Made by a program: the position numbers and the translations under genes
NCBI GenBank assembly: GCA_020160935.1
Contig: JAIUPL010000016.1
Location: 1 to 64,000 of the forward strand
From: Bacteroidota bacterium
GTDB taxonomy: Bacteria > Bacteroidota > Bacteroidia > Chitinophagales > Saprospiraceae
Direction of reading: 5' to 3'
Length of the DNA stretch: 64,000 nt
Part shown: in pieces, positions 37,520 to 62,219 of the stretch
Numbering within the stretch: the stretch's first letter is position 1
Layout: every line of letters begins with the position of its first letter
The notes under the pieces: model-generated
Databases searched by the model: none
Told to the model about the DNA's origin: nothing
What the model saw: the letters and a program-made list of their open reading frames with translations, nothing else

Positions 37520-37753
37520 ATGAAATTTGAATTCAATTTATCCATCAGCGAAATCGTGGTAACCTATGTCGTGATGATGGTTGTTATTTTTATTGCAGGA
37601 TTCTCCGGCCACTGGGGACTGGCCATTGTGGGCCTGCCACTTTTCCTGCGCGGACTGATGGGCTGGTGCCCGATCAAAACCCTGCTGAACAGTCGGAAAG
37701 AAGCCTCCAACGTACAATCGATGGAGCAAACTTCGCACCGGGCAGCAGCGTGA
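37520..37753 (+). CDS. DUF2892-like small membrane protein
   Basis: 77 residues from the ATG at 37520, preferred over 37442 because conserved sequence starts here. Two membrane helices are separated by a short loop: 'VVTYVVMMVVIFIAGFSG' and 'WGLAIVGLPLFLRGLMGWCP', ending 'IKTLLN'. The 'GWCP' motif and layout match DUF2892/YgaP-like inner-membrane proteins. Its stop TGA is the start of the repeat-armed hairpin that follows. Confidence 0.7.
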   Translation: MKFEFNLSISEIVVTYVVMMVVIFIAGFSGHWGLAIVGLPLFLRGLMGWCPIKTLLNSRKEASNVQSMEQTSHRAAA

Positions 37754-37905
37754 GTGTTTTGGTGTTTTTGTGTTTTTGTGTTTTTGGGGTGCTTCGCTTT
37801 GGGCTTTTAAGTTTGGAAAACCATGCATGCTAATTATTTGCATGAAAAAAACGAATGCCAAAAGCAAAGCACCCCAAAAACACTAAAACCCTAAAACACA
37901 AAAAC
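37752..37905. repeat. Repeat-armed inverted repeat between convergent genes
   Basis: Left arm is built of GTGTTTTT units from the stop codon of the DUF2892-like gene. It ends in a core at 37778-37800 (GTGTTTTTGGGGTGCTT...) that pairs with 37861-37883 (one G-A type mismatch at the C in GCTTCGC). The right arm continues as CTAAAAC/CACAAAAAC units to the stop of the next gene. The loop of ~60 bases holds CATGCATG. Confidence 0.75.
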
Positions 37906-37906
37906 C

Positions 37907-38503
37907 CTAACTCCCCCGTCCATACGCTTCATAATCCTCCATCGTATCCACATCCATTGCGCCTTCTGGAAAGGACACCGTAGCCAGGTCGTCCAGGTGG
38001 GCGGAGAGTATTTTTTTGGCGCCTGCGTCGCCACTCAATTGCAGGAGTTTTTCCCGGTATTTCCCGGTAAAAAGAACGGGCGTACCCAGCGTATCGGCGT
38101 AGGCCGCCGCCACGATATTTTTGCCGCTTTTCTGCTGTGTTTCATACAGCGATTGAAAAAGTGCGGCCGTGACATACGGCTGGTCGCAAACGGCAATGAT
38201 AATATGCTCTATTTCAGGGAAATGCGCGCCGAGGTACCGAACGCCGGCCATGATGCCCGTTCCTTTTCCATCTTCCCATAGTTCATTGTACACAATCTGT
38301 ATGGCCCGGTCCTGGATGGATGCGGACACTTCTGCAGCATAGGCCCCGGTTACTACGACCACTTGTGAGGGCTGGGCCTCCAGCGCAACGTCGGTGATAT
38401 GCTGGATAAATGTTTTGTTGCCAAATAGGAGTAGTTGCTTGATACCACTACCCAGTCGGGCCGAACGTCCAGCCGCCAGAATTACGATGCCTGTATTTTC
38501 CAT
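37907..38503 (-). CDS. MobA/MocA-like nucleotidyltransferase
   Basis: 198 residues from the ATG at 38503 (the 38512 start is a TTG). N-terminal nucleotide-binding signature 'IVILAAGRSARLGSGIKQLL', then 'GTGIMAGVRYL' and 'AVCDQPYVTAALFQSLYE' (Asp binds metal), and 'DVDTMEDYEAY' near the end. This is the layout of MocA-type cytidylyl- or guanylyltransferases for molybdopterin and similar small transferases. No other molybdenum-cofactor gene is nearby, so the acceptor is uncertain. Confidence 0.8.
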   Translation of the reverse strand: MENTGIVILAAGRSARLGSGIKQLLLFGNKTFIQHITDVALEAQPSQVVVVTGAYAAEVSASIQDRAIQIVYNELWEDGKGTGIMAGVRYLGAHFPEIEHIIIAVCDQPYVTAALFQSLYETQQKSGKNIVAAAYADTLGTPVLFTGKYREKLLQLSGDAGAKKILSAHLDDLATVSFPEGAMDVDTMEDYEAYGRGS

Positions 38504-38601
38504 GTTGAACAAAAAATGCAGGCAATGATAGGGACGAAAAAAAGCAGCGAGGGAAACTTTTTTGAAAATTCACCTTGTTTTGCACGCAAACAAATCGAAA
38601 T

Positions 38602-39066
38602 ATGACCATTTCTCAACACCTGGCTAAAAACCTCCGCGATGTGTACTTCGGGGGCAACTGGACGGCGTCAGACCTGAAAACCCAACTCAACGATGTGACC
38701 TGGCAACAGGCTACTACGCAGGTATTTGGGCTGAACACCATCGCCACACTCGTTTTTCACCTGAATTATTACGTCAAAGAGGTAACAAAAGTGCTTCAGG
38801 GACAGCCACTTACTGCCAGCGACAAGTTTGCGTTCACATATCCGCCTATTCAGAACAGGGAAGACTGGGAACGCCAACGCGACAGTATTTGGGCGGATGC
38901 CGAGGCTTTTGCCCAATTGATCGAACAACTGCCCGATGAAAAACTGTTGCAGGATTTTGCCGACCCAAAGTACGGGACGTATTATCGAAACCTCGCGGGT
39001 ATTATCGAGCACATTCACTACCACCTGGGACAGATTGCGGTGGTGAAGAAGATTGTGAATACTTGA
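38602..39066 (+). CDS. DinB-family protein
   Basis: 154 residues from the ATG at 38602. Four-helix bundle with metal-binding histidines as in DinB/YfiT: 'TLVFHLNYYVKEV' (first His) and 'GIIEHIHYHLGQIAVVK' (the second and third, H-x-x-x-H). Members act as metal-dependent thiol transferases or in stress responses; the substrate is unknown. It is convergent with the lipoprotein gene 3 bases away. Confidence 0.85.
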   Translation: MTISQHLAKNLRDVYFGGNWTASDLKTQLNDVTWQQATTQVFGLNTIATLVFHLNYYVKEVTKVLQGQPLTASDKFAFTYPPIQNREDWERQRDSIWADAEAFAQLIEQLPDEKLLQDFADPKYGTYYRNLAGIIEHIHYHLGQIAVVKKIVNT

Positions 39067-39069
39067 GTT

Positions 39070-39585
39070 TTAATGCTCCTGCACTACAGCCTTTCCAAAA
39101 AACAATGCCTCTGGCGCCGGGCGCGGAGTACCCAATGTCGTACCATCAGCATCGGTCACGGTCACGGTCAGCCTGTATTTTTCATAATTGCCATAGTCGG
39201 CGCAATCAATCGTGCGGGTTTCCTGAATACTGATTTTTGCCTTCCCTACAACAGCCGAACTCGGTGCGTTTTGAGGGTTTCCAGGTGGCTGCAAAACGAC
39301 GCGGCTCTCCTGATCGGCCGTTTTTACTTTCAAGGTATATTGCACTGAACCGGCCCATACGCAGTCTACGTCGCAGGGACAACGGTATTCATTGGCATCT
39401 GCAAAGCATACCGACATATCGTACTGTGGATATTCGGCGCAGTCTTGCCAGGAGAGAATCGTCTCGCGGGCAGTCGTGGTATTGTCAGCGGCTTTTTCGG
39501 AAGCAGCGAAAGAATCGTCTTTGGTGCATGCATTGAGCGCAAATACACTGGCGAAAAGCGGGAACATTAATCGGAAGTTTTTCAT
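39070..39585 (-). CDS. Lipoprotein with CxCxxxC motif
   Basis: 171 residues. The signal sequence ends in a lipobox ('FALNAC'), so it is a periplasmic or outer-membrane lipoprotein. A cysteine-rich segment reads 'RCPCDVDCVWAGSVQYTLKV', a pattern shared by many small Bacteroidota lipoproteins ('RCP...CVWAG'). More cysteines occur at 'QDCAEYP' and 'TIDCADYG'. Role unknown. Confidence 0.7.
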   Translation of the reverse strand: MKNFRLMFPLFASVFALNACTKDDSFAASEKAADNTTTARETILSWQDCAEYPQYDMSVCFADANEYRCPCDVDCVWAGSVQYTLKVKTADQESRVVLQPPGNPQNAPSSAVVGKAKISIQETRTIDCADYGNYEKYRLTVTVTDADGTTLGTPRPAPEALFFGKAVVQEH

Positions 39586-39737
39586 GGCGTTTCAATATTT
39601 ATCGGTGGATAATTCATTTTTGAAAATGTGACTGCATTCCACGAAAAAACACTGTTCCAGATCGCCTCCAAAACAAAATTGGGGTCATTTTCAGCCAAAA
39701 CTGGCGAGAAAATGCCCCAATAAAAAAACGATACCTT

Positions 39738-39918
39738 GTTGAGGGGTTGAGGGGTTGAGAGGTTGAGAGGTTGAGAGGTTGAGGGGTTGAGAGGTTGAGG
39801 GTTGAGGGGTTGAGGGTTGAGAGGCTTCTCCTTGGTCTCATAGTCATGACCAAGAGAAAGCCCCTCAACCTCTCAACCTCTCAACCCTCAACCTCTCAAC
39901 CCCTCAACCCCTCAACCT
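39738..39918. repeat. Long inverted repeat with GTTGAGG/GTTGAGA arms
   Basis: The gap 39586-39920 is mostly this element. About a dozen 7-8 base GTTGAG(G/A) units run from 39738, then an apical stem CTTCTCCTTGGTC (39824-39836) pairs with GACCAAGAGAAAG (39848-39860). The complementary CTCAACC units then run up to 39918. The right end touches the stop codon of the minus-strand gene at 39921 (on that strand, TGA followed by GGAGGTTGAGG). The first ~150 bases of the gap (39586-39737) show nothing notable. Confidence 0.85.
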
Positions 39919-39920
39919 CC

Positions 39921-40382
39921 TCACTGCGCCTGCGCCTGTTTCGAATTATTCGACATATTCACGTCGGGGTTGACTACGCCTGCGTTTTTAGATTCCACCA
40001 CCAATTTAAAGGTGGGCGGTTTTTGTTTGCCCTTGATATAGGTAGTGTAATAATTCATCGAAGTTTCCGCGCCGGAAACCATAATATTGAGCGACCGGGA
40101 GTCTACTTCCTGCCAGCCATTGCCATTTTTCAGGTACAGGCGCACCTTGAGCGGCGAGTTTCCGGGCATGTAAGGCAAGGTGCCGATATTTTTCGCCGTG
40201 GCCTTGATGGCTACGCCGATTTGCACATCTCCATTTGGAAAAACGAGGGCATCGGCAGGAAGAAACTGGATCGGGAGCGCAGCAGGATCGGCGCCCTCGG
40301 GCACATTTGATTTTATGATCTGTGCAAAAGAAGCAGCCGAAGCCACAAAAGTAAAAACGAAGAACAAGAGTACTTTTTTCAT
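39921..40382 (-). CDS. Secreted CARDB-like protein
   Basis: 153 residues from the ATG at 40382. Signal peptide 'VLLFFVFTFVASAASFAQ'. A single Ig-like beta domain follows ('DVQIGVAIKATAKNIGTLPY', 'VRLYLKNGNGWQEVDSRSL') of the CARDB type, ending in a polar Q/A tail. Probably periplasmic or exported. Its stop codon abuts the GTTGAGG hairpin. Confidence 0.65.
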   Translation of the reverse strand: MKKVLLFFVFTFVASAASFAQIIKSNVPEGADPAALPIQFLPADALVFPNGDVQIGVAIKATAKNIGTLPYMPGNSPLKVRLYLKNGNGWQEVDSRSLNIMVSGAETSMNYYTTYIKGKQKPPTFKLVVESKNAGVVNPDVNMSNNSKQAQAQ

Positions 40383-40534
40383 GTGTTGTGTAAATTGGAG
40401 GTGAATAATGGATGTTCCTACCTGTGTCGCACATCGAAAAAATGTACCCGGCAAACCGGATTTTTTTTCAAGAAGTCATTCATAATCAGGTTTCTGTATG
40501 CATTTTCATGAGCCAGAAATAATGAGAATCAAAA

Positions 40535-40557
40535 AAAACTAAACAAACGTTTGATTT
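40535..40557. promoter_or_regulatory. TetR operator upstream of tetR
   Basis: 23 bases identical to 41297-41319. It has the perfect palindromic core CAAACGTTTG (40544-40553), flanked by ACTAAA on the left and ATTT on the right. It overlaps the -33 TTTG of the promoter at 40550-40553. Confidence 0.8.
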
Positions 40558-40574
40558 TTTCTTCCCACCTACCC

Positions 40575-40582
40575 TACCTTTG
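40575..40582 (+). promoter_or_regulatory. -7 element of the tetR gene
   Basis: TACCTTTG matches TAnnTTTG. A TTTG lies 21 bases upstream, inside the operator. The ATG follows after eight bases, so the transcript is almost leaderless and probably self-repressed. Confidence 0.65.
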
Positions 40583-40590
40583 CATCGCTT

Positions 40591-41238: not shown

Positions 41239-41269
41239 TTTCTGTAGAAGAGAATATTGGTTGGGAACA

Positions 41270-41290: not shown

Positions 41291-41296
41291 GACCTA

Positions 41297-41336: not shown

Positions 41337-42659
41337 ATGACAAACCTTCTTGCCAAGACAACCCGCTTCAGTGTTGTGTTTGTGCTGTTGATGCTGTCTT
41401 CCGGCGTACAAGCACAGTCGGGCGAAGAGCGAACACTTACCCTGGATGAAGTGGTGCAACTCGGGCTTGCAAATAGCAAGCAGGTGCAAATTGCCAGCAC
41501 TCGTGCTGACATCGCACAAACGAAAACCCGCCAGGCATTGGCTTCCACGGTACCGTCTCTGACCTATTCAGGTTCGTACTATCGTCTGAGCGACAACATC
41601 ACTCCCTTCGAAACACCGCTGTTTACAATGCCGGTGTTGCTCAACCAGACCCTCAATCGTGTAAGCATCAGTGAGCCGGTGTTTACCGGATTGCGGGCAC
41701 TGAACACCATCCGTGCCACTGAATTTCTGGAAAATGCCGCTCGTTTTGACCTGGAGCGCGACAAAAAAGAAGTGCAACTCAATGTGATTAGCGCCGCTAT
41801 ACAGGTGTACAAACTGGAAGAGGCGCTCAAAGTGGTACAGAGCAGCCTGCTGACCGCGCAAAACCGACTCAAAGACACACGCGCGCTGCAACAGCAGGGC
41901 ATGGCGCTCGACAACGACGTGTTGAAAGCCGACTTTTCGCTGACGCAAATGGAAACGGCCCAGATCGAGACGACCAACAACCTCGCAGCAAGCCGCTTCG
42001 CCCTGAATACACTGCTGGGGCTTCCTGTCAATACCGTCGTACACATCGAGGCTGCCTCCATCGGCGCCGGCGCTGGCGCTGAAACACTGGAGTCGCTGCT
42101 CAATAACACTACCCAACGCGCTGATTATCAGGCGTCTACACAGCGGCTGCTTGCTTCCGAAAAACAACTCAAGGTAAGCAAGGGCGCCTACTTGCCACTG
42201 GTTAGCATTGGCGCAAATCTGTACACCAACAACCCCAATCAGCGCCAGTTCCCACTCGAAAACCGCTTCATCACTACCTGGGATGCGGGCATTCAGGTGT
42301 CATGGAACATTGGCAACCTCTACACCGGCCGGCACAACGTGCAGGAAGCCCGCCTCAATCTGACGCAATCTACCGTCCAGCGCGACCAGTTGCTCGATGC
42401 TGCCAATACTGATGTCAGCAACAATTACTTCGCCTGGCAAACAGCCCTGCAAAAAATTGCACAGTCGGAAAAATCTCTCACGCAGGCTACTGAAAATCAG
42501 CGCATTGTGCAACTCAGAAACAGCCAGCAATTGTCGACATTGACCGATCTGCTCGACGCCGACGCCCTGCTGCTGCAAGCCCGAATCAATCAGGTAAGCG
42601 CCAAAGCCGACGCTTCGCTGAGCCGGTTCAGGTTGCTGAGAAGCGCAGCGAGGCTTTAG
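41337..42659 (+). CDS. TolC-type outer-membrane efflux channel
   Basis: 440 residues from the ATG at 41337; the frame's earlier start at 41331 is TTG. Signal peptide ends 'GVQAQ'. Two copies of the outer-membrane efflux fold, each opening with a long helix ('LDEVVQLGLANSKQVQIAST' and later 'LASEKQLKVSKGAYLPLVSI') and containing 'WQTALQKIAQSEKSLTQAT'. It forms the trimeric channel for the adaptor and transporter encoded next (74 and 61 base gaps). It is preceded by the TetR operator. Confidence 0.9.
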   Translation: MTNLLAKTTRFSVVFVLLMLSSGVQAQSGEERTLTLDEVVQLGLANSKQVQIASTRADIAQTKTRQALASTVPSLTYSGSYYRLSDNITPFETPLFTMPVLLNQTLNRVSISEPVFTGLRALNTIRATEFLENAARFDLERDKKEVQLNVISAAIQVYKLEEALKVVQSSLLTAQNRLKDTRALQQQGMALDNDVLKADFSLTQMETAQIETTNNLAASRFALNTLLGLPVNTVVHIEAASIGAGAGAETLESLLNNTTQRADYQASTQRLLASEKQLKVSKGAYLPLVSIGANLYTNNPNQRQFPLENRFITTWDAGIQVSWNIGNLYTGRHNVQEARLNLTQSTVQRDQLLDAANTDVSNNYFAWQTALQKIAQSEKSLTQATENQRIVQLRNSQQLSTLTDLLDADALLLQARINQVSAKADASLSRFRLLRSAARL

Positions 42660-42696
42660 AGGTGAGAGATGATAGATGATAGATGAGAGATGAGAA
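42660..42696. repeat. One-armed tandem repeat after tolC
   Basis: AGGTGAGAGATGATAGATGA-type 7-base units (GATGATA/GATGAGA) start directly after the TAG stop. No complementary arm is found nearby. Similar one-armed arrays occur at 45543 and 52307. Confidence 0.65.
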
Positions 42697-43958: not shown

Positions 43959-45542
43959 ATGGCTACCGTTTCACGTTTTGCCCGTTTTTTCATTGTTCTC
44001 ACCACTGTTTCCGCAGCAGTGATGGAACTGGTAGATACCTCTATCGTCAATGTAGCGCTGTCGCAAATGGCGGGTAGCCTGGGCGTCACGATCGAAGACG
44101 TTTCCTGGGTTATCACCTCCTATGCGATTGCCAATGTGATCATCATCCCGATGACCGGCTTTTTAGGCGCTTATTTTGGTCGCAAGAACTACTATGTCTT
44201 TTCCATGGTACTGTTTACTGTTGCCTCCTGGATGTGCGGCAATTCGACAGGATTATGGGAACTGGTTTTCTGGCGTTTTATACAGGGAATCGGCGGTGGC
44301 GCCCTGCTTTCCACCTCGCAAAGCATCCTTTTTGACGCTTTTGAACCCAAAGACCGCCCCATGGCCAGTGGTCTGTTTGGCATGGGTGTGGTACTCGGCC
44401 CTACGCTGGGCCCTACCATCGGCGGATATATCCTCGACAATGCCGAATGGCCGCTCATTTTTACCGTGAATATCCCGATTGGTATTGTAGCGACCTTTCT
44501 TTCCGTCTTGTTCGTAGAGAAAAAGCCCGGGGAAGGCGAGCAAAAAAAGGGATTTGTTATCGATTATACAGGAATTGCTCTTCTAGCCGTTGGTATCGGC
44601 TCGCTTCAATACGTACTGGAACGCGGCGAATCGGAAGACTGGTTTGCCAGTGAAGCCATCCGTGTTTTGTCGGTCACCGCACTGATCGGTGTAGTAGGGT
44701 TCATCTGGCGACAACTGACGACGCCACACCCGGTTGTCAACCTCAAGGTGATGGGCAATCGAACACTTGCGCTGACCACTGTTTTCACCTTCGTGATCGG
44801 GATCGGGCTTTTCACGTCCGTTTTTGTGTATCCGATTCTGGCACAACGTGTACTGGGGCTTACCCCGCTTGAAACAGGCCTCTCTTTGCTTCCGGCCACT
44901 GCCATCGGCGTGGTGATGATGCCCTTGATCGGCCGAAGAATGGCCTCGGGTGCTTCGCCTATTCCTTTTGTCATCATCGGTTTCTGTATCTTCATTGCAT
45001 TCGGATGGATGGCGGCAGGGGTAAATGCGCAGGCTGGAAAATGGGATTTCTTCTGGCCCCTGGCTTTGCGCGCCGTTGGTATCAGTATGGTGCAATTACC
45101 ACTCATCAACCAGGCTGTAGCGGGCTTGAAACCGCATGAATATCCTTCCGGTATTGCCCTGAACAACATGATTCGGCAGTTGGGCGGCGCATTCGGTATC
45201 GCCATTTCCAACAACTACATGGCCCGGCAATTTGCCCAGCACAAAGCCGATCTGGTCTCCAACGCCGTTCCGGGAAATCCGGCATTCGACGAACGCCTCA
45301 ACATCATGGTGCAGGGCATGGTGAGCCGCACCGGCGCTGCCCTAAGCGATGCTACGGCCATGGCCTACAAACAACTCAACTTTGCCATCGAACGGCAGGC
45401 ATATCTGCTTACCTACCTCGACACCTTCCGGCTGGTTTCCCTGTTTTTCGTAGTGGTTTTTCCACTCATTTTCTTCATCAAGATCAAAAAACAGGGCCCG
45501 CCAACGGAAGCCGCGAAGGCGGCAATGGAGGACGCTCATTAG
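43959..45542 (+). CDS. DHA2-type MFS drug exporter (EmrB/QacA-like)
   Basis: 527 residues and about 14 membrane helices, the size and count of the DHA2 group. Motifs: 'ELVDTSIVNVALSQMAG' in helix 1 (motif D1 with its Asp), 'GFLGAYFGRKNYYVF' (motif A region), 'RFIQGIGGGALLSTSQSILF' (motif B with its Arg), and 'GMGVVLGPTLGPTIGGYI' (motif C). It exports drugs or other hydrophobic compounds by proton antiport and works with the adaptor and channel encoded upstream. Its stop TAG is followed at once by a GTGAGAGA repeat. Confidence 0.9.
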   Translation: MATVSRFARFFIVLTTVSAAVMELVDTSIVNVALSQMAGSLGVTIEDVSWVITSYAIANVIIIPMTGFLGAYFGRKNYYVFSMVLFTVASWMCGNSTGLWELVFWRFIQGIGGGALLSTSQSILFDAFEPKDRPMASGLFGMGVVLGPTLGPTIGGYILDNAEWPLIFTVNIPIGIVATFLSVLFVEKKPGEGEQKKGFVIDYTGIALLAVGIGSLQYVLERGESEDWFASEAIRVLSVTALIGVVGFIWRQLTTPHPVVNLKVMGNRTLALTTVFTFVIGIGLFTSVFVYPILAQRVLGLTPLETGLSLLPATAIGVVMMPLIGRRMASGASPIPFVIIGFCIFIAFGWMAAGVNAQAGKWDFFWPLALRAVGISMVQLPLINQAVAGLKPHEYPSGIALNNMIRQLGGAFGIAISNNYMARQFAQHKADLVSNAVPGNPAFDERLNIMVQGMVSRTGAALSDATAMAYKQLNFAIERQAYLLTYLDTFRLVSLFFVVVFPLIFFIKIKKQGPPTEAAKAAMEDAH

Positions 45543-45594
45543 AGAGGGTGAGAGAGTGAGAGAGTGAGAAGGTGAGAGAGTGAGAAGGTGAAAG
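45543..45594. repeat. One-armed GTGAGAGA tandem repeat
   Basis: Seven or so 8-base units (GTGAGAGA/GTGAGAAG) begin directly after the stop codon of the pump gene. No complementary arm follows. Confidence 0.65.
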
Positions 45595-45610
45595 GGGCCG
45601 CTCATTACCA

Positions 45611-49360: not shown

Positions 49361-49370
49361 GTTTTTTTGG

Positions 49371-49631
49371 GGTTGATAGGGTTGATGAGGTTGATAAGTG
49401 TTGATGAGGGTTGATGAGGGTTGATGAGGGTTGATATTTAGCCGCTCTATGAGGTAAAAATTATTCCTGCCCGAGCGGCTAAATATCAACCCTCATCAAC
49501 CTTTATCAACACTTATCAACCTCATCAACCCTATCAACCTCATCAACCCTATCAACCTCATCAACCCTATCAACCTCATCAACCCTATCAACCCTCATCA
49601 ACACTTATCAACCCTCATCAACCCTATCAAC
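49371..49631. repeat. Long inverted repeat with GTTGATGA arms before enolase
   Basis: The gap 49361-49670 holds this element. Left arm is GGGTTGATGA units (49371-49427) with apical stem GGGTTGATATTTAGCCGCTC (49428-49447), a perfect match with 49473-49492 (25-base loop). The right arm, longer, is CTCATCAACC units to 49631. It ends 39 bases before the enolase ATG; the rest is A/T-rich with no clear -7 element. Confidence 0.85.
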
Positions 49632-49658
49632 CTTCAACATCGATTTTTCTAAAAATAA

Positions 49659-50957
<1,299 letters not shown>

Positions 50958-50977
50958 TTCTTTTTTGTGTGTTTTGA

Positions 50978-51102
50978 AGGCCTCACCCCCCGGCCCCCTC
51001 TCCAACGGAGAGGGGGAGCGAGTACCCTTGGCTTTTTCAACAGTGAAGCCAAGCGGGAAGTCACCCCCTCTCCGTTGGAGAGGGGGCCGGGGGGTGAGGC
51101 CT
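50978..51102. terminator. 39-bp perfect hairpin between eno and paaC
   Basis: Arms 50978-51016 and 51064-51102 are perfect complements. They are extremely GC-rich (AGGCCTCACCCCCCGG...), with an inner short stem CTTGGCTT / AAGCCAAG inside the 47-base loop. The element lies between convergent genes. GC-rich palindromes of this look are seen in several unrelated bacteria, from memory, so it may be a mobile miniature element acting as a terminator. Confidence 0.85.
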
Positions 51103-51118
51103 CTAAAACCCCATAAAT

Positions 51119-51871
51119 TCACCATTCATTCCCCGGATACGTCCTTTGCAAATGCTGCATTTCTGCCAGCATATACCCCAGGTATTCTGTGTGGACGCCG
51201 GTTTTCCCGCCTTTTTGCATCCAGCCTTCGGCCGGCATTTTGAGCGTTGCTTCTTCCAGCACTTCGGCCACCTTTTTTTGCCACAAGGGTTTGATTGTGA
51301 GCAAGTTGTATCCTACGCCGGATTCTGCTGCCCACAGGTCGGCTTCTGATGGAGTAGTCAGTTCGCCTGTAAAAGGCCAGAGTTCATCCACCGCCTTTTG
51401 AATTTTTTGTCGGCTCAGTTCGGTACCATCCCCCAGGCGCATCATCCATTCGGATGAAAAACGCAGGTGATAAGTCACTTCCTTGAGCGATTTTTCGGCA
51501 ATGGCCGCCAGTTGCGGGTCCTTGCTTTGGAGCAAGGCCTGATAATGGTAATAGTGCCAGGTATCAAAAAAGAATTGCCGGGCCATGGTAAATGCCCAGT
51601 CGGTATTGGGCTGTTCTACCAGCAGCACATTCCGGTATTGCTGTTCCGAGCGGAAATAGGCCAGCGCGTCTTCGCCACGTCCTTCGCCTTCCACTTCGCC
51701 TGCATGGGTCAGCAACATACGCGCCTGCCCGAGCAGATCAAGCGCGATATTGGTCAGGGCAATGTCCTGTTCGAGTACGGGGCCGTGCCCGCACCATTCG
51801 CCCAGGCGCTGGGAAAGTACCAGGGCGTTGTCGCCCAGTTGCAAGAGATATTGAAAATGTGGAGTGTTCAT
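51119..51871 (-). CDS. paaC: Phenylacetyl-CoA 1,2-epoxidase subunit PaaC
   Basis: 250 residues from the ATG at 51871; the frame extends to 51955 only through repeat DNA. A helical bundle of the ferritin-like type: 'FQYLLQLGDNALVLSQRLGE', 'EQDIALTNIALDLLGQARML', 'TWHYYHYQAL' and 'EVTYHLRFSSEWMMRLGDGT'. PaaC is the structural partner of the catalytic PaaA in the di-iron epoxidase of phenylacetate breakdown. Here it follows paaB, but paaA, paaD and paaE are absent from the vicinity. The 156-base gap from paaB is filled by a hairpin. Confidence 0.9.
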   Translation of the reverse strand: MNTPHFQYLLQLGDNALVLSQRLGEWCGHGPVLEQDIALTNIALDLLGQARMLLTHAGEVEGEGRGEDALAYFRSEQQYRNVLLVEQPNTDWAFTMARQFFFDTWHYYHYQALLQSKDPQLAAIAEKSLKEVTYHLRFSSEWMMRLGDGTELSRQKIQKAVDELWPFTGELTTPSEADLWAAESGVGYNLLTIKPLWQKKVAEVLEEATLKMPAEGWMQKGGKTGVHTEYLGYMLAEMQHLQRTYPGNEW

Positions 51872-51880
51872 GATAATAAG

Positions 51881-52027
51881 AGTCCTGAGTACTAGTCCTA
51901 AGTCCTGAGTCCTAAGTCCTAAGTCCGTAGCGTACACCTGATTACTCTTTAGCATTCATTTATCTAAATATAAAGGGTAATCAGGTGTACACTACGGACT
52001 TAGGACTCAGGACTTAAGACTCAGGAC
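51881..52027. repeat. Hairpin with GTCCTGA/TAAGTCC arms between paaB and paaC
   Basis: Tandem GTCCTGA and GTCCTAA units form the left arm. The inner stem 51921-51951 pairs with 51971-52001 (29 of 31 bases; core GTAGCGTACACCTGATTAC). The right arm ends at the paaB stop codon (52028-52030). Shares its core with the hairpin at 56699. Confidence 0.85.
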
Positions 52028-52306
52028 TCACATATGTTTTACCGCATCCGGCAGGTCATAAAAAGTAGGGTGCCGATACACCTTGTCATTAGCAGGGTCG
52101 AAAAATGCCTCGGCATCTTCGGTCGAAGCGTGGATATGTGCCGACTCGACGACCCAAATACTGACGCCTTCATTGCGGCGGGTGTACACATCGCGGGCAT
52201 TTTCAATGGCCATTTGCGCATCGGCTGCATGCAGGCTGCCAACGTGCTTATGGCTAAGACCTTGTTTGGAACGGATAAATACTTCCCATAGCGGCCATTC
52301 GTTCAT
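52028..52306 (-). CDS. paaB: Phenylacetyl-CoA epoxidase subunit PaaB
   Basis: 92 residues, the usual length. Signature layout 'WPLWEVFIRSKQGLSHKHVG', then 'DAQMAIENARDVYTRRNEGV' and 'SIWVVES'. PaaB is the small bridging subunit of the PaaABC(E) complex. It starts the transcript here: upstream there is only repeat DNA and a divergent gene, so the paaA that should precede it is missing. Its stop codon adjoins the intergenic hairpin. Confidence 0.9.
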   Translation of the reverse strand: MNEWPLWEVFIRSKQGLSHKHVGSLHAADAQMAIENARDVYTRRNEGVSIWVVESAHIHASTEDAEAFFDPANDKVYRHPTFYDLPDAVKHM

Positions 52307-52345
52307 AGAGGTGAGAGGTGAGAGGTGAGAGAGGTGAGAGAGGAC
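52307..52345. repeat. GAGGTGA tandem repeat adjoining the paaB start codon
   Basis: Five or so GAGGTGA/GAGAGGTGA units start immediately upstream of the paaB ATG (on the minus strand the ATG is preceded by CTCTCACCTCT). There is no complementary arm close by, so it is a one-armed array. Confidence 0.6.
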
Positions 52346-55335: not shown

Positions 55336-56685
55336 ATGAACCTGAAACATATTGCTGCCGCCTTGCTGCTCACCCTGCCAGCGGCGGCCACCTTCGCACA
55401 ACAGGAGATGATGCTGAACGCCGTGCCCAATCTCTGGCATAGCAACACCTCCACCAATCCGGCATTTTTCCCGGAAAAAAAGCATGTAGTCATCGGCCTG
55501 CCGGCATTCGGCATCGATGCAGCACATTCCGGCGACGTTACCTATAAGGATATTTTTAGAAAAGACGGCGACCGCACGGTTGTTGATTTTGGGAATGCCA
55601 TCAGCAAACTAGACCCTGAAAATGACCTGGAATTCGACCAGCGCATCGAAACGGTGTCATTCGGATTCCGCTCGCCCAACGACAAATGGGGCTTTCAGGT
55701 AGGCCACGCCATTGCTTTTTCCGGCGTCATCACCTACCCCAAGGCCTTGCCCGAATTGCTCTGGAACGGCAATGCTTCCTACATCGGCCAAACGGTGGAG
55801 ATCGGCGTACAAGCCGATGTGGCCGACTGGCATGAGTGGAGCGTGGGCGCTATGCGTCAGTTTGGCCCACTCAACGTAGGCGCACGGGTGAAACTTCTGA
55901 CTGGCATCAGCGCCCTGCGCACCGACGATAACCGGCACAGCATGTCGATTTATACCGACCCCGATATTTACCAGTTGACGCTGAAAACGGATTATGCGTT
56001 TTACTCGTCTTCCATCATTTCGGCCATCGACACGGCCGATCTCGGGTTTGATATTACGCTGGATGCCCTGGGCAACAAACTGCGCTCCAAAAACAACGGC
56101 CTGGCATTCGACCTGGGCGGTGTACTGGAACTCGGCGACCGCCTGACCCTGAATGCCAGCGTGATCAACCTCGGTGGCGCCATTCATTTCAAAAACAACG
56201 CGCGCTATTTCCAAAGCAAGGCCGAATACCAGTACACCGGCAGCGTGATCCCGGGTGAAGACATCATCAACGGCTCCGACGACATCGATTTCGATACAAA
56301 ACTGGATACGCTGAACGATATTTTCCGCTTTACCCAGACGCCTTCCGAGGCGCTGGAAGCACAAGCCCCCCTGCGCATTTATGCCGGTGGCGCTTTCGAA
56401 CTGACCAAACACTGGTCGGTAGGGCTCACCGTTTTTCACCAGAAAAAAGACCGTAAAAGCAACACCGCCGTCGGCGCCAATGTGCGCTGGCTGCCCCTGC
56501 GCTGGCTGTCACTGGGCGCCATGTACAGCGTCAACGACCGCTCGGCCGCCAACCTGGGTTTCCATCTGGCTGTCACGCCCGGGCCTGTACAGTTCTACTT
56601 CCTGTCTGATAACCTGCTGAATGCTTTTACCCTGAAAAGTTCGTCGGCCGCCAATTTGCGGGCGGGACTGGCGATGGCTTTTTGA
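55336..56685 (+). CDS. DUF5723-like outer-membrane protein
   Basis: 449 residues with a signal peptide ending 'AATFAQ'. A conserved start 'NTSTNPAFFPEKKHVVIGLP' is followed by many barrel strands, up to a closing 'NLRAGLAMAF'. The pattern matches DUF5723 barrels of Bacteroidota. It follows the large lipoprotein by 33 bases, so both are probably co-transcribed. Its TGA begins the GAGTCCTGA repeat arm of the next hairpin. Confidence 0.75.
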   Translation: MNLKHIAAALLLTLPAAATFAQQEMMLNAVPNLWHSNTSTNPAFFPEKKHVVIGLPAFGIDAAHSGDVTYKDIFRKDGDRTVVDFGNAISKLDPENDLEFDQRIETVSFGFRSPNDKWGFQVGHAIAFSGVITYPKALPELLWNGNASYIGQTVEIGVQADVADWHEWSVGAMRQFGPLNVGARVKLLTGISALRTDDNRHSMSIYTDPDIYQLTLKTDYAFYSSSIISAIDTADLGFDITLDALGNKLRSKNNGLAFDLGGVLELGDRLTLNASVINLGGAIHFKNNARYFQSKAEYQYTGSVIPGEDIINGSDDIDFDTKLDTLNDIFRFTQTPSEALEAQAPLRIYAGGAFELTKHWSVGLTVFHQKKDRKSNTAVGANVRWLPLRWLSLGAMYSVNDRSAANLGFHLAVTPGPVQFYFLSDNLLNAFTLKSSSAANLRAGLAMAF

Positions 56686-56698
56686 GTCCTGACTCTAT

Positions 56699-56832
56699 AG
56701 TCCTGAGTCCACAGTCCTAAGTCCTGAGTCTGTAGAGTACACCTGATTACCCTTGGTTTTTCCAATAACTACAGCCAAGTATAATCAGGCGTACTCTACA
56801 GACTCAGGACTCAGGACTGTGGACTCAGGACT
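56699..56832. repeat. Hairpin with AGTCCTGAGTCC arms before tilS
   Basis: Left arm 56699-56755 (AGTCCTGAGTCC and AGTCCTAAG units, then GTAGAGTACACCTGATTA and CCTTGG) pairs imperfectly with 56775-56832. Repeat units start at the stop of the preceding gene. The apical stem CCTTGG/CCAAG and core GTAGAGTACACC recall other hairpins here. It ends 15 bases before the tilS ATG. Confidence 0.85.
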
Positions 56833-56847
56833 TTATACTTACAACAC

Positions 56848-58164
56848 ATGACGCTGGACGCATTCAAATCCCATCTCCCCCATTCGGCCACACCGACGCT
56901 GCTGGCAGTGAGCGGAGGGCTGGATTCTGTGGTGATGGCGCACTTGTTTCATATGGCAGGACAGGCCTTTGCTGTGGCGCACTGTCAGTTTCAGTTGCGC
57001 GGAACGGAGTCGGAAGAAGATGCGGCATTTGTACAGCAGTTGGCGGAAGCATACGGCGTACCTTTTTTTGTCAGGCATTTTGAAACGAAGGAATACGCCA
57101 CACAGCAAGGCCTATCTACACAGGTGGCGGCTCGGGAACTGCGGTATGCGTGGTTTTCAGAATTGTGTGCTACACATGGATTCGAGTATATAGCCACGGC
57201 GCACCACCTCAACGACTCGGTAGAAACCATGCTCCTGCACCTGGCGCGGGGCACGGGCATCCGCGGGCTGCGGGGCATTCCGATTCGGAACGGACCGGTG
57301 ATTCGGCCGCTGTTGTTCACTACAAGGGCTGAAATACTGGCATTTGCACAGGAACACGGTCTCCCCTGGCGGGAAGACAGCAGCAATGCCAGCGATGCTT
57401 ACACCCGCAATGTGATTCGCCACCGCCTCGTGCCGTTAATGGAAGAAATCAATCCCCGATTCATTCTATCTGCCGCAGAAACCATGGCGCGACTGGCAGA
57501 AACCGAACACATCCAGCAGGCGCTCCTGCAACAATGGTGGCAGGAAAAAAGCCGGACAGCGCAGGATGGTGTGCAACGCATTGGCAAACAAGAGGTGCTG
57601 CACATGCCCCACCCCGAGCATGTTTTGTTCCTGCTACTGGAAGAAAAAGGGTTTTCACCCGAACAATGCAGGCAACTGGCTGCGGGGCTGCACGGCGAGC
57701 CCGGACTTGAGGTAAAAACGGAAACCCACCAGGCACTGATCGACCGGAATGATCTGATTATCAGTCCTTTGCAAGCCGTCCTGCCGTCCCTGTATATTCA
57801 AGCCGACGATCTGATGCTGCGCCTGCCCGACGGTCGTACGCTGATGCTGATGCCCGGCGGCGCTACCCCACCCTACCCCGACGGGCAAACAGCCATTGTG
57901 GTGGATTCGGAAAAACTGGTGTTTCCTTTGCAGTTGCGTACCTGGACGCCCGGCGATGTGTTTCAGCCGTTTGGCATGGGCGGACAGGCGCAGAAGTTGC
58001 AAGATTTTTTTACCAACCGAAAACTGTCGCGCCTGGAGAAAGACCGTACCTGGCTACTACTGAACGGCGACGGCGCTATTATTTGGGTGGTCGGGTTTCG
58101 CTTGGATGAACGTTTTAAGGTCGTCCCCAGAACAGATAAAATATTGAAAATGAGCATTTTGTAA
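56848..58164 (+). CDS. tilS: tRNA(Ile)-lysidine synthase
   Basis: 438 residues, usual length. Modifies the C34 wobble base of tRNA-Ile to lysidine using ATP and lysine. N-terminal PP-loop 'LLAVSGGLDSVVMAHLFH' (~19-36), then 'HCQFQLRGTESEEDAAFVQQ', 'TAHHLNDSVETMLLHLARGT', 'WREDSSNASDAYTRNVIRHR' (signature), and a C-terminal TilS domain with 'PFGMGGQAQKLQDFFTNRKL'. An essential housekeeping gene whose flanks both carry hairpins. Confidence 0.9.
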   Translation: MTLDAFKSHLPHSATPTLLAVSGGLDSVVMAHLFHMAGQAFAVAHCQFQLRGTESEEDAAFVQQLAEAYGVPFFVRHFETKEYATQQGLSTQVAARELRYAWFSELCATHGFEYIATAHHLNDSVETMLLHLARGTGIRGLRGIPIRNGPVIRPLLFTTRAEILAFAQEHGLPWREDSSNASDAYTRNVIRHRLVPLMEEINPRFILSAAETMARLAETEHIQQALLQQWWQEKSRTAQDGVQRIGKQEVLHMPHPEHVLFLLLEEKGFSPEQCRQLAAGLHGEPGLEVKTETHQALIDRNDLIISPLQAVLPSLYIQADDLMLRLPDGRTLMLMPGGATPPYPDGQTAIVVDSEKLVFPLQLRTWTPGDVFQPFGMGGQAQKLQDFFTNRKLSRLEKDRTWLLLNGDGAIIWVVGFRLDERFKVVPRTDKILKMSIL

Positions 58165-58422: not shown

Positions 58423-58481
58423 AATCGAAGCCTAAACCCCTACCCCATCCCAAAAATAACGGAAAGACTCAAGACATATTC

Positions 58482-60389
58482 ATGAAGTCACTGCTTACAT
58501 TTCCCTTGCGGCTGGGCATTTTCTGGCTGCTTTTTTTTGCTGTTTTCCGACTGTGGTTCGTATTGTGGTTTCGGGCCGAATGGTCGCCGCAAGCCCCCTG
58601 GTCGGCATGGTCTTCCTTCTGGCATGCCCAGCCGCTCGACCTGAGTATGGCGGGATATCTGTTGCTTGTTCCAGTGGTGCTGTGGTTTTTGGGAATACTT
58701 GTTGGGAAAGCCGGCTATCGGTATTTCAACGCATTGATTTCGGGGTTTAATTTCCTGCTAATCGCTGTGCTCGTATTCATTTTTGGCGCCAATATTTTCA
58801 TCTACGAAGAATGGCACACCCTGCTCAACCACCGGGCGGTGGAGTACATTTCCACCCCGCGCGCGCTGCTCGATTCCATGTCGGGCGGGTTTAAACTACT
58901 GGCAATCGGGCTGTTCGTATTAGGGGTATGGTTGTTGTGGAAAGGATATAAATGGGTGGTTGGCAAGGATTTATACCCGGAAAACACCTCGCGCTGGGGC
59001 TTTCTGGCACTGCCTGTCTGGGTAGCCCTGATCGGCCTGGCTATCCGTGGCGGGCTCGGCGTAATGCCCATCAATGAAAGCGCGGTGTATTACTCGGTGC
59101 ATCCGTTCAACAACCACGCAGCCACCAATACCGCCTGGTACCTGGCGCACAGCCAACTGGAAACGCGCTCGACGCAGAACCATTACCGGTTTATGTCGAA
59201 TGAAGAAGCAACCCGGCATTTGCAGGAATTGTATCCTGAAGGCTGTTTTAAAGGCCCAATTACGCCCCTTTCTGCGGCCTCCGACAGTACCCGCCTGAAT
59301 GTCGTTTTTATCATCATGGAAAGTATGACGGCGCAGGTGGTGGAAGAACTGGGCGGTGAAAAAGGGGTATGCCCAACCTTGAGCGGACTCATTCGCGACG
59401 GCGTTCTGTTTGAAAATATCTATGGCAGCGGCTACCGCACCGACCAGGGAATTGTGTCGGTGCTGGGCGGCTACCCGGCACAGCCCGATCAGTCGATCGT
59501 GTTGCTGTCTGACAAAGCGGAGAAGATCAATTCCCTGCCCAAAATCCTGTACGAGCAAGGCTATTCCACGGCGTTTTTCTACGGCGGCGAACTCACTTTC
59601 GCCAATATCGGGGTGTGGCTGCGCAACCAGAAATTCGAAGTCATACGCTCCGAACCCGATTTCCCGGCATCCGACAAAACACAGCGCTGGGGCGTCGACG
59701 ACGATCGGCTTTTGCAACACAGTATTCAGGAAATCAATCAGTTAAAACCGCCGTTTCTGGCAACGGCCATGACGCTCAGCCTGCACCCGCCTTTCGATGT
59801 GCCGTATCACAGCCGCTGGGAAAACGGGCCGGAAGAGCGCGACAAATTCCTGCACAGCGCGGCGTTTGCTGATTATGCCATCGGCAAGTTTTTTGAGTCG
59901 GCACGCCAACAACCCTGGTACAACAATACGCTGTTTGTGCTGGTTGCCGACCACGGCGCTTCGCATCCGGGCGAAGTGGGTATGGACGACCCGAAATCGC
60001 GACATATTCCGCTGATTTTGTATGGCAAACCCATCAGTAAAGAATGGCAAGGAAAACGGTTTTCGGTGTTTGGTAACCACCACGATATTCCAGCCACGGT
60101 GCTGCCATGGCTGTCGAAACATCCAATAAATACCGCATTCCCCTGGAGTCGCAACCTGTTTTCGCAGGAAATGATGGTCAAAAATCCTGCCCCTGATCAA
60201 AAGTGTGCCGGTGATTTTGCCTATTACACCAATGAAAACGGCCTCGGCTGGGTCAATCGCCAGGGCGCGGGCTTCTACTATTTCAACAGCCAGGAATGGC
60301 GCTGGTGGCGGCCATCGCTCGATTCGAGCAGCCAGACACAGGCGAAAGCGTATTTGCAGATGCTGTATGAGGATTTTTTGAGCAAATGA
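58482..60389 (+). CDS. LTA synthase family sulfatase-like membrane protein
   Basis: 635 residues. Five N-terminal membrane helices (~1-165, for example 'LGIFWLLFFAVFRLWFVLWF'), then a periplasmic sulfatase-like domain (~275-600). Its metal and nucleophile motifs are 'NVVFIIMESMTAQVVEELGG' (Glu), 'GSGYRTDQGIVSVLGGYP' (Thr as nucleophile) and 'VLVADHGASHPGE' (Asp, His). This is the phosphoglycerol-transferase layout. In Gram-negatives such enzymes add phosphoethanolamine- or phosphoglycerol-type groups to envelope glycans or lipids. The substrate is unknown here. Confidence 0.85.
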   Translation: MKSLLTFPLRLGIFWLLFFAVFRLWFVLWFRAEWSPQAPWSAWSSFWHAQPLDLSMAGYLLLVPVVLWFLGILVGKAGYRYFNALISGFNFLLIAVLVFIFGANIFIYEEWHTLLNHRAVEYISTPRALLDSMSGGFKLLAIGLFVLGVWLLWKGYKWVVGKDLYPENTSRWGFLALPVWVALIGLAIRGGLGVMPINESAVYYSVHPFNNHAATNTAWYLAHSQLETRSTQNHYRFMSNEEATRHLQELYPEGCFKGPITPLSAASDSTRLNVVFIIMESMTAQVVEELGGEKGVCPTLSGLIRDGVLFENIYGSGYRTDQGIVSVLGGYPAQPDQSIVLLSDKAEKINSLPKILYEQGYSTAFFYGGELTFANIGVWLRNQKFEVIRSEPDFPASDKTQRWGVDDDRLLQHSIQEINQLKPPFLATAMTLSLHPPFDVPYHSRWENGPEERDKFLHSAAFADYAIGKFFESARQQPWYNNTLFVLVADHGASHPGEVGMDDPKSRHIPLILYGKPISKEWQGKRFSVFGNHHDIPATVLPWLSKHPINTAFPWSRNLFSQEMMVKNPAPDQKCAGDFAYYTNENGLGWVNRQGAGFYYFNSQEWRWWRPSLDSSSQTQAKAYLQMLYEDFLSK

Positions 60390-60395
60390 GTTTGG

Positions 60396-60502
60396 GAGTT
60401 ATGAGTTATGAGTTATGAGTTTTACTCACTTTGCTATCGGCTACTCTCGTTAAGAAGCCGATAGCAAAGTGAGTAAAACTCATAACTCATAACTCATAAC
60501 TC
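60396..60502. terminator. 47-bp perfect hairpin with ATGAGTT arms
   Basis: Arms 60396-60442 and 60456-60502 match perfectly around a 13-base loop. Three 7-base GAGTTAT units form the outer part, then the unique inner part ACTCACTTTGCTATCGGCT. The TGA stop of the upstream gene is followed within six bases by the repeat. Confidence 0.85.
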
Positions 60503-60516
60503 ATAACTCCATTCAC

Positions 60517-60524
60517 TACCTTTG
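60517..60524 (+). promoter_or_regulatory. -7 element of the esterase gene
   Basis: TACCTTTG matches TAnnTTTG and lies 50 bases before the ATG at 60575. No -33 element is visible; the upstream part is the hairpin arm. Confidence 0.5.
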
Positions 60525-60574
60525 CAAAAAACGTAACCATTAACGCTCCACATTCAATTCCTTTTTACAATCTG

Positions 60575-61306
60575 ATGAGACGAGAAATCCACAACTGGTA
60601 CAGCCCTCGGCTGAACAAAAACATGGAAATTGCCATGTACGGTCATTTCGGATTTAGCCTGTTGTTGCTGCCGACTGCTGCCGCCGATTACCTTGAATAT
60701 GAGCGTTTTCACCTCATTTCTGCTATTGAGCCGCTGATTGAAGCAGGCAAGGTTAAAGTGTTCAGTATCAACAGCATCAATTCCGAAGCCTGGCTGAACA
60801 ACCGCATGGACCCGCGCCACAAGGCCATCCGCCACCAGCAATTCAACGGCTATGTAGAAAACGAGGTAGTACCGTTTATCAAAATGCACACCAGCGATTC
60901 CACGCCAATCATTACCAGCGGCGCTTCACTGGGCGCACTGCACGCCGCCAACCTGTTTTTCCGCCGCCCCGACCTGTTTGCCGGCACCATTGCCATGTCG
61001 GGACTGTACGATCTGACGTCCTATACCAAAGGCTATTTCGACGAGGATGTGTATTTCAACTCTCCTTGCCACTACCTGCCGAATCTGACTGACCACGCAA
61101 CTCTGGAACGCCTGCGCGCCAGCGGCCACATCCATATCATGACCGGCTCGGGTGATTACGAAGACCCCGAAGGTTCGCGCCGCCTCGCAGGCATTCTGGC
61201 CGGCAAGGGCGTAGGCTGCGACCTCGATGTCTGGGGCCCTGATATGCGCCACGACTGGCCTACCTGGCGGGCAATGCTGCCGTATGTGCTGGATCAGAAG
61301 TTTTGA
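60575..61306 (+). CDS. Alpha/beta hydrolase, putative esterase (COG4947-like)
   Basis: 243 residues, no signal peptide. Nucleophile elbow 'GASLGALHAANLFFRRPDLF' (~115-135), 'GSGDYEDP' with a likely acid, and the His near 'WGPDMRHDWPTWRAMLPYVL'. The N-terminal part 'REIHNWYSPRLNKNMEIAMY' is typical of small cytoplasmic esterases in this group. It stands alone between two hairpin/repeat regions. Its stop TGA is part of the next GTTGAGG array. Confidence 0.8.
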   Translation: MRREIHNWYSPRLNKNMEIAMYGHFGFSLLLLPTAAADYLEYERFHLISAIEPLIEAGKVKVFSINSINSEAWLNNRMDPRHKAIRHQQFNGYVENEVVPFIKMHTSDSTPIITSGASLGALHAANLFFRRPDLFAGTIAMSGLYDLTSYTKGYFDEDVYFNSPCHYLPNLTDHATLERLRASGHIHIMTGSGDYEDPEGSRRLAGILAGKGVGCDLDVWGPDMRHDWPTWRAMLPYVLDQKF

Positions 61307-61307
61307 G

Positions 61308-61359
61308 GAGGTTGAGGAGTTGAGAGGTTGAGGAGTTGAGAGGTTGAGGAGTTGAGGGG
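61308..61359. repeat. GTTGAGGA array between the esterase and the four-helix-bundle gene
   Basis: Six or seven GTTGAG(GA/AG) units begin directly after the TGA stop of the esterase gene and end at the stop codon of the minus-strand gene. Complementary units lie at 61993-62219. Confidence 0.75.
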
Positions 61360-61752
61360 TTAAGGGGAGGATGTTTTTTTCTGTTTTTGATGTTTTTCCA
61401 ATTGAGAACGTCGAAGTGCATTTATTTTTTTGGAAACATCTTCAATAATAGGGCGAATCTGTTGCAATTCTATTTGATTAATATAGTGTAAGTCGACAGC
61501 CACAATGAGGAGATTTAACACCTCCATGAGGCTGCCGTATGCAATCTCAGAAAATCGCGCCTGTTCTTTACCTTTCATTCTGGCACTTCCTTCCGCAATG
61601 TTGTTGGTAACAGAAATGCTGGCCCGACGAATTTGTGACACAAGTCCAAATTTTTCATCGTCTGGCAGTCTTTTTGAAATGTTGTAAACATGTTTGTTTA
61701 ACGTCCGTCCGCATTGCCAGACATTCAATTTTTCAAATGGATAAGCGTGCAT
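61360..61752 (-). CDS. Four-helix-bundle protein (23S rRNA intervening-sequence type)
   Basis: 130 residues. Pattern 'PFEKLNVWQCGRTLNKHVYN', 'FGLVSQIRRASISVTNNIAE', 'GSARMKGKEQARFSEIAYGS' and 'SLMEVLNLLIVAVDLHYI' is characteristic of the bIVP/S23 family, also called avd-like four-helix bundle. In spirochaetes and Coxiella such proteins are encoded inside 23S rRNA intervening sequences. Elsewhere the role is unknown. There is no reverse transcriptase or variable repeat nearby, so a diversity-generating element is not supported. The gene is enclosed by repeat arrays of the GTTGAGG/CTCAACC type on both sides. Confidence 0.85.
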   Translation of the reverse strand: MHAYPFEKLNVWQCGRTLNKHVYNISKRLPDDEKFGLVSQIRRASISVTNNIAEGSARMKGKEQARFSEIAYGSLMEVLNLLIVAVDLHYINQIELQQIRPIIEDVSKKINALRRSQLEKHQKQKKTSSP

Positions 61753-61817
61753 GATCTTGATTGATTATTTTAATAATAAATCAAATATACATTGCTTTGT
61801 GCACTCGCAAGTATTAA

Positions 61818-62219
61818 GTTGAGAAGGCTGTGGGGTTGAGAGGGTTGAGATGGTTGAGGGGTTGAGATGGTTGAGGGGTTGAGAAGGCTGTGGGGTTGAG
61901 ATAGTTGAGGGGTTGAGATGGTTGAGGGGTTGAGATGGTTGAGAGGTTGAGATTCGGCCACACTAATCGGCCAAAGACACTTTTCCTTCTCTAAACCCTC
62001 TCAACTCTTCAACTCACTCAACTCCTCAACCCTCCCAACCCCTCAACTCCTCAACCTCTCAACCCTTCAACTCACTCAACTCCTCAACCCTCTCAACCCC
62101 TCAACCCTCTCAACCCTCTCAACTCCCTCAACCCTCTCAACCCCTCAACCCTCCCAACCCCTCAACCCCCTCAACCCTCTCAACCTCTCAACCCCTCAAC
62201 CTCTCAACCTCTCAACTCA
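61818..62219. repeat. Large GTTGAGG / CTCAACC inverted array
   Basis: Left part 61818-61951 is GTTGAG-type units of 7-15 bases, including two copies of GTTGAGAAGGCTGTGGGG (61818 and 61879). A ~40-base spacer with CGGCC-ACACTAAT-CGGCC follows. The right part 61993-62219 is CTCAACC/CTCAACT units. The right part is long enough to pair with both this left part and the array at 61308. The gap 61753-62225 otherwise holds only ~65 A/T-rich bases next to the four-helix-bundle start. Confidence 0.85.

Follow-up and report, generated by a model that had tools for sequence, protein, structure and literature searches.

Gene-end palindromes of a Saprospiraceae bacterium and their association with S23/IVP genes suggest an overlooked class of spreading DNA element

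The 64,000-nt stretch analyzed here (positions 1 to 64,000 of contig JAIUPL010000016.1, assembly GCA_020160935.1, from a Saprospiraceae bacterium of the phylum Bacteroidota; hereafter the window) contains a series of long inverted repeats at the ends of genes, most of them with arms built from short tandem units. We consider it reasonably probable that most of these palindromes belong to a class of foldback elements that are mostly gene-free, with a minority carrying a gene of the S23/IVP family (23S-rRNA intervening-sequence protein). The association of such arrays with S23 genes extends over several phyla. Taken together, the observations suggest an overlooked class of spreading DNA element, to which the intervening sequences (IVSs) of rRNA genes and the heptamer repeats of cyanobacteria may also belong.

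Results

Inverted repeats between genes form dispersed families

To the window we added 40 stretches of 20 kb from the same genome (G000; 5.84 Mb, 51 contigs), and this 864 kb of sequence was scanned for inverted repeats with a score of at least 18. The scan returned 146 elements, 12 of them in the window, and none in first-order shuffled sequence (three shuffles, with up to 200 kb from each of four pieces). According to a simple in-house gene caller, on which the position counts are based, 144 of the 146 lie less than half within called genes. The median arm measured 50 nt and the median whole element 136 nt. The arms were tandem by our cut in 83/146 elements, compared with 1/146 after shuffling. 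Their commonest period was 7 (29 of the 83), followed by 8 and 14, and period 7 was also the commonest in the flanks of S23 genes.

A preliminary description of the window had named ten of these sites as one class of elements with arms of short units. All ten carry an inverted repeat, with best arms of 46–73 nt that are 88–100% complementary, and most show the units as named; a clear tandem structure is lacking in the arms at 50971 and 58199. A single class is thus supported for most members. The units had been taken as peculiar to each site, but they proved to be common to many sites and genomes. The units AGTCCTGA (with the inner core GTAGAGTACACCTGATTACCCTTGGC), GAGTTAT, GGTTGATGAG, GTGAGAG, ACACGGATT, GTGTTTT, CCTTTGTGAAACCTTGGTG, and others recur across sites, a single ACACGGATT-type query aligned 84 times in G000 when both strands are counted, and the same units were found in several genomes. 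Most palindromes are therefore members of dispersed families, one family for each repeat unit of 6–10 nt (most often 7) or a multiple thereof. The remark that few elements precede 37 kb is correct for the window, where two small ones were found, but all three other sampled contigs hold elements. Assembly artefacts are unlikely as a general cause because the arrays are also present in complete plasmid records and in genomes assembled into 7 and 9 contigs.

In six families, the mean agreement between arms was 0.92–0.97 within an element and 0.77–0.85 between elements, a difference that arises in part because the elements were detected by the similarity of their arms. The arms are also polar. In gene-free elements of G000, the first arm was richer in G than in C in 107 cases, and the reverse was found in 26.

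S23/IVP genes lie between inverted arrays of short units

One composite in the window, at 61303-62219, consists of a one-sided array, an S23/IVP gene, and then a palindrome that is also a gene-free element in its own right. The two arrays pair across the gene over 35 nt at 94%. This gene is situated between two esterase-family genes, not inside a 23S rRNA gene, and an Rfam scan of the window gave no match above the gathering score.

The S23/IVP family (PF05635) has ten matches in G000, and nine of these genes have arrays on at least one side when inspected by eye, with units differing from gene to gene. The family is present in 38 of the 41 genus genomes searched (G000 included) and in 157/198 genomes of a Bacteroidota sample; none of 14 control genomes contained it. 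Among the best-scoring S23 loci of the genus, 73 of the 77 examined have inverted short-unit arrays on their two sides (score of at least 14), compared with 11/639 control genes of G000 with the same flanks, 6/223 when only control genes up to 700 bp are counted, and 8/640 with 200-nt flanks. A tandem array in the flank (score of at least 12) was found at 76/77 S23 loci and at 220/639 control genes. The 77 loci omit L182, which is Avd-like and has no arrays, and L201, which lies at a contig end with a run of N; with both restored, the count is 73/79.

The association was also seen outside the genus. S23 matches occurred in 23 plasmid records, mostly of Nostoc, Calothrix, and other cyanobacteria, and 14 of the 16 fetched have the gene between inverted arrays. 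In the Bacteroidota sample, the same was found at 10 of 30 loci. A tblastn search of phage records gave no S23 match. In the open-licence literature, judged by title, start of abstract, or passages, S23/IVP genes were nowhere linked with tandem arrays among the papers listed.

Two genomes that are ~95% alike, G007 (9 contigs) and G009 (7 contigs), are informative. In this comparison, one array pair encloses a small PF05635 gene (G007 C1:1333488). At one orthologous site, an S23 element with GGTTTGAAGG arrays in G009 corresponds to a small palindrome in G007 that has the same core but no gene. The S23-carrying and the gene-free forms can therefore replace each other.

Two side observations concern the location of S23 genes. 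On the cyanobacterial plasmids of loci L316, L319, and L321, S23 elements lie within cas loci, between cas6 and cas4 or between cas10 and a cmr3-family gene; a published survey lists 18 S23 genes in cas loci (PMC3936711). Several S23 genes of G014, G006, G032, and G017 are only a few hundred bases or less away from a contig end, as would be the case if short-read assemblies break at the arrays.

The arrays are paired, polar, and co-diverge with the S23 protein

The two flanks of an S23 gene match each other specifically. In three locus sets, the median score of matched flank pairs exceeded that of mismatched pairs (26 v 8, p 1.6e-43; 11 v 8, p 6e-11; 21.5 v 8, p 8e-9). Polarity was nearly uniform at the 108 loci with a pair score of at least 11, where the upstream arm had more G than C in 105 (74, 17, and 14 by set), more C than G in one, and a tie in two.

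The S23 protein and the array sequence co-diverge across non-orthologous loci. Protein identity correlated with unit similarity over 2866 pairs from the 77 loci (Spearman 0.16), a value reached by none of 300 permutations; 60 pairs with homologous outer flanks had been removed. Mean unit similarity was 0.25 in the 165 pairs with at least 50% protein identity and 0.017 below this threshold. The preliminary description had listed the elements as possible targets of an unknown machinery, and the co-diverging S23/IVP gene supports such a link.

Elements favour gene 3' ends and turn over between relatives

The elements favour gaps 3' of genes and stop codons, and they shun starts. Among gaps of at least 100 nt, an element was present in 43/67 convergent, 45/103 forward co-directional (++), 29/93 reverse co-directional (--), and 13/105 divergent gaps. 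Placement within gaps was compared with 500 random placements in the same gaps for the 143 elements with both neighbours; the 18 elements exceeding their gap were kept in place and overlaps with genes were counted. Stop-side ends lay within 15 nt of the stop in 115 cases against a random mean of 91.0, and no placement reached 115; within 5 nt, the counts were 92 and 65.0. Many gaps, however, leave too little room for an element to avoid touching a gene. In the 75 cases whose gaps left 60 nt or more to spare, 23 stop sides lay within 15 nt, compared with 7.5 expected. Start sides lay near the start in 8 cases versus 25.1 expected, and in 0/75 versus 6.6 in the gaps with spare length. The location at 3' ends and stop codons, as first described for the window, thus exceeds chance. 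Five of the six ends that had been placed at a stop TGA abut or overlap it; for the sixth, at 60389, the start of the arm is 6 nt past this position. The stop beside an element was TAG in 33/90 cases, compared with 118/553 elsewhere, and 62 of 130 arms contain stops in all three frames on inward reading, compared with 22 of 130 reverse complements.

These positions, with the excess of elements 3' of genes and in convergent gaps, are also what would be seen if the palindromes were functional 3'-end hairpins (terminators or RNA protectors) selected at fixed places, with arms built in situ by slippage and template switching and with S23 genes as late passengers. This alternative is in our judgement unlikely. 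A scan for canonical terminators (GC-rich stem plus T run), which bears neither way on this question, gave matches that were rare throughout, in co-directional gaps at 9/168 without and 5/75 with an element, and in convergent gaps at 3/25 and 3/50. Arm mismatches were counted for seven unit patterns, one of them without a member. In co-directional gaps, G.T, which RNA pairing tolerates, did not exceed A.C (64 and 69 of 215), so that no sign of RNA-level selection on the arms was found there. Identical units at many sites in several genomes, and the co-divergence of unit and S23 protein, also speak against hairpins that arose in place.

Orthologous gaps were compared with those of four same-genus relatives (G028, G016, G006, and G031), where both flanks could be compared. 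The preliminary description had proposed sister-genome gaps as a check for gain or loss, and every state was seen: gain, loss, and replacement by another family. The 51.9 kb element is present in G000 and G028, whereas the same two genes stand 10–13 nt apart without it in G016, G006, and G031. This element, placed where three relatives have no gap between the genes, is a further point against hairpins selected at fixed places. The 58.2 kb palindrome occurs only in G000 among the five genomes and is probably a young gain because the gap in G028, G016, G031, and G006 is 0–22 nt and element-free. At 39.7 kb, the array is absent from G028, with only a remnant left. A different sequence occupies the same gap at 49.4 kb (other arrays in G006 and G016), at 56.7 kb (G016 and G006 with other sequences, G031 with no element), and at 60.4 kb (the GTGTTTGG family in G006). 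At 51.0 kb, G028, G006, and G016 each have a palindrome too, each with another sequence, which is as selection for a hairpin at that place would have it.

Arm-by-arm alignments were made for six orthologous elements whose family is the same in G000 and G028. Nineteen columns had changed in concert, 35 in a single arm, and 6 otherwise, with 223 unchanged. The snap-back formation proposed earlier is possible, being compatible with the mirrored changes and with the lack of RNA-strand asymmetry among the mismatches; replacement with another copy could also produce mirrored changes.

The modelled S23 protein resembles Avd

The S23 protein of the window was modelled from its single sequence (mean pLDDT 75). 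The best structural matches of the model were the S23-family entries 2gsc and 2rld, followed by Avd (4dwl) and a retroelement ribonucleoprotein complex (8ube), both with prob 1.00, E 0.07 and above, and TM 0.66–0.76. The NCBIfam Avd model matched the protein with E 7.4e-4, far below the cut-off of that model. Based on this model, the S23 protein would share its four-helix-bundle fold with Avd, the partner of reverse transcriptase in diversity-generating retroelements. The title of Lin et al. 2006, as cited elsewhere, describes 2gsc as five four-helix bundles.

Four RVT_1 matches were found in G000, including one next to the IVP-like gene L182. At this locus (L182/L313, C29:123656-124943), a reverse-transcriptase open reading frame precedes a diverged, array-free IVP-like gene, and the locus may be a diversity-generating retroelement that includes its Avd.

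Features of the window

Table 1. Foldback elements and the S23/IVP gene in the window
Feature	Position	Strand	Remarks
Gene-free foldback element, unit GTGTTTTT	37754..37911		Convergent gap; G028 has a same-family element at the orthologous place
Gene-free foldback element, unit GTTGAGG(G)	39738..39919		Ends 1 nt before the stop of minus-strand gene 39921-40382
Gene-free foldback element, unit GGGTTGATGA	49370..49634		Right array exceeds left; upstream of gene 49671-50957, presumably enolase (our own reading)
Palindrome without clear tandem units (CCTCACCCCCCGGCCCCCTCTCC)	50971..51109		Convergent gap
Gene-free foldback element, unit AGTCCTGA, inner core GTAGCGTACACCTGATTAC	51881..52028		Between PaaA/PaaC-family gene (51119-51955) and its upstream neighbour (52028-52306)
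Gene-free foldback element, ACACGGATT-type units	52439..52676		
Gene-free foldback element, AGTCC family	56683..56848		Begins in the TGA of gene 55336-56685
Palindrome, arms 73 nt at 97%	58199..58405		
Gene-free foldback element, unit GAGTTAT, arms 47 nt at 100%	60396..60513		
GTTGAG array, downstream side of S23/IVP gene	61303..61367		Covers the TGA of gene 60575-61306
S23/IVP gene, 130 aa	61360..61752	-	PF05635, E 1.8e-33; TIGR02436, four helix bundle protein
GTTGAG arrays, inverted, upstream side of S23/IVP gene; itself a gene-free palindrome	61817..62216		

The window also contains short tandem arrays beside gene ends that are outside the list of long inverted repeats, at 42658-42695 (AGAGATG), 45542-45596 (GAGAGGGT), and 52307-52331 (AGAGGTG). 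Elsewhere in G000, non-tandem palindromes at C51:264868-265532, C43:75580, and C43:21326 (GTAGAGACAAGGC, TTTAGTCCGTCGGGATAGCGCC, and GATTTGACAACTTTT) resemble separate families of the repetitive extragenic palindromic (REP) or miniature inverted-repeat transposable element (MITE) kind.

Discussion

Each family of foldback elements has its own short unit, repeated in tandem in two inverted arms, with the G-richer arm first on either strand as a rule. In our proposal, the gene-free majority would resemble MITEs of the S23-carrying element. The elements would move, probably rarely. The S23 protein may recognize its own unit as a single strand and help to copy or disperse it, and the arms may be kept alike through fold-back template switching at the DNA level. 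In RNA, the arms would form a long stem that is cut by RNase III, as reported for one 23S rRNA IVS; an element inserted behind a stop codon or between genes of one transcript would therefore be tolerated. Such an insertion may incidentally end or protect a transcript.

A bolder version of this proposal joins gene-end palindromes, the short tandemly repeated repetitive (STRR) sequences of cyanobacteria, Xanthomonas heptamers, and the 23S rRNA IVS into one phylum-spanning class, in which an Avd-like S23 protein would recognize the G-rich repeat of its family and a reverse transcriptase acting in trans would copy it through RNA, somewhat like telomere synthesis. We hold this to be rather doubtful. 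The modelled kinship with Avd is the sole hint at a copying mechanism, and neither a reverse transcriptase nor a template repeat was seen in array-flanked S23 elements.

Quite improbable, in our estimate, is that the palindromes are elements like REPs or bacterial interspersed mosaic elements (BIMEs) that are mobilized by Y1 transposases (REP-associated tyrosine transposases, RAYTs). The positions agree with those given for REPs in a passage of PMC3733652: downstream of genes, near both 3' ends in convergent gaps, with the element supplying stop codons. Y1_Tnp genes occur in 33/41 genus genomes, an inverted repeat spans the gene at 15/30 Y1 loci, and some non-tandem palindromes (TTTAGTCC, GTAGAGACAAGGC) may be of this kind. 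However, G000 has two Y1 matches, and the gene enclosed by the elements is S23/IVP. Strong tandem arrays were found at 7/30 Y1 loci compared with 23/29 genus S23 loci. No clear end tag emerged, GTAG occurring at 19/146 outer ends and CGTC at 0/146, versus 10 and 9 times, respectively, in control windows placed 60 nt beyond the elements, and the median element of 136 nt exceeds the 20–40 bp given for REPs in that source. RAYTs are not favoured as the machinery, given these differences in tags, element size, and the flanks of Y1 loci.

Very improbable is ordinary slippage without any machinery, with the S23 association following from a shared preference for gene ends: short tandem units do expand by slippage generally and arrays are common in the gene flanks of G000 (the 220/639 above), but the specific pairing of arrays across the S23 gene, their polarity, and the co-divergence argue against it.

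Several observations weigh against the foldback-element proposal itself. Only 83/146 arms in G000 are clearly tandem, and only 6/10 of its own S23 genes pass the strict cut, while one of these ten genes (L182) stands beside a reverse-transcriptase open reading frame without arrays. The 77 genus loci and the other S23 loci analyzed are the top-scoring ones and not a random sample, and arrays in the Bacteroidota sample are short and degenerate, 20/30 falling below the cut. G007 and G009 have 7 and 4 S23 genes but few palindromes (6 per 200 kb each). Of the G000 arms of at least 25 nt, 60/139 match no examined S23 flank at a cut of 0.4, and whole families (ACACGGATT, CCTTGGTG, TTTCCCGCAGA, GGATTAGAAGG, and TTTAGTCC) have no such match. 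The flanks of nine S23 genes of G000 matched 65 gene-free arms, just above the maximum of a noisy control (20 draws of nine small genes chosen at random; mean 30.6, maximum 62). Replacement within gaps is no proof for the tandem class alone because the 51.0 and 58.2 kb palindromes are not tandem, and no insertion junction, target-site duplication, or movement was resolved. No catalytic activity is known for the S23 protein, and it may be a passenger.

S23/IVP proteins, rRNA IVSs, and STRR heptamers have so far stood apart without explanation, and a passage of PMC4990558 calls the function and origin of S23/IVP proteins and rRNA IVSs unclear. If all are one kind of element, the S23 protein gains a candidate ligand in its own unit, the repeats gain a candidate factor, and the S23 genes in cas loci become readable as insertions.

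Among known systems, REPs and BIMEs with their RAYTs share with the present elements dispersed palindromes at gene 3' ends and an associated protein family, but they differ in protein fold, in their end tags, and in having short non-tandem palindromes. The S23 protein is predicted to share the four-helix-bundle fold of Avd from diversity-generating retroelements. In the 23S rRNA IVS, as here, an S23/IVP open reading frame is enclosed by terminal inverted repeats that form a long stem; the same passage of PMC4990558 gives a 28-bp stem for the Coxiella IVS. Unlike the IVS, the present elements are intergenic, have tandem arms with family-specific units, and include far more numerous gene-free copies. 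Cyanobacterial STRRs are described in a passage of PMC2670836 as intergenic and hairpin-capable, with units usually of 7 nt and function not known; they resemble our elements in unit length, intergenic location, and hairpin capacity but belong to a different taxon. S23 genes of cyanobacterial plasmids lie between STRR-like heptamer arrays, which we equate with STRRs by resemblance, and no link of STRRs to S23 genes appeared among the searchable papers. The GGGAATC heptamers of Xanthomonas likewise form inverted pairs, with 70 and 75 convergent cases in two strains; they often lie within 50 bp of stop codons and are described as quadruplex-forming in a passage of PMC4692102. The S23 protein of structure 2gsc comes from the same Xanthomonas species.

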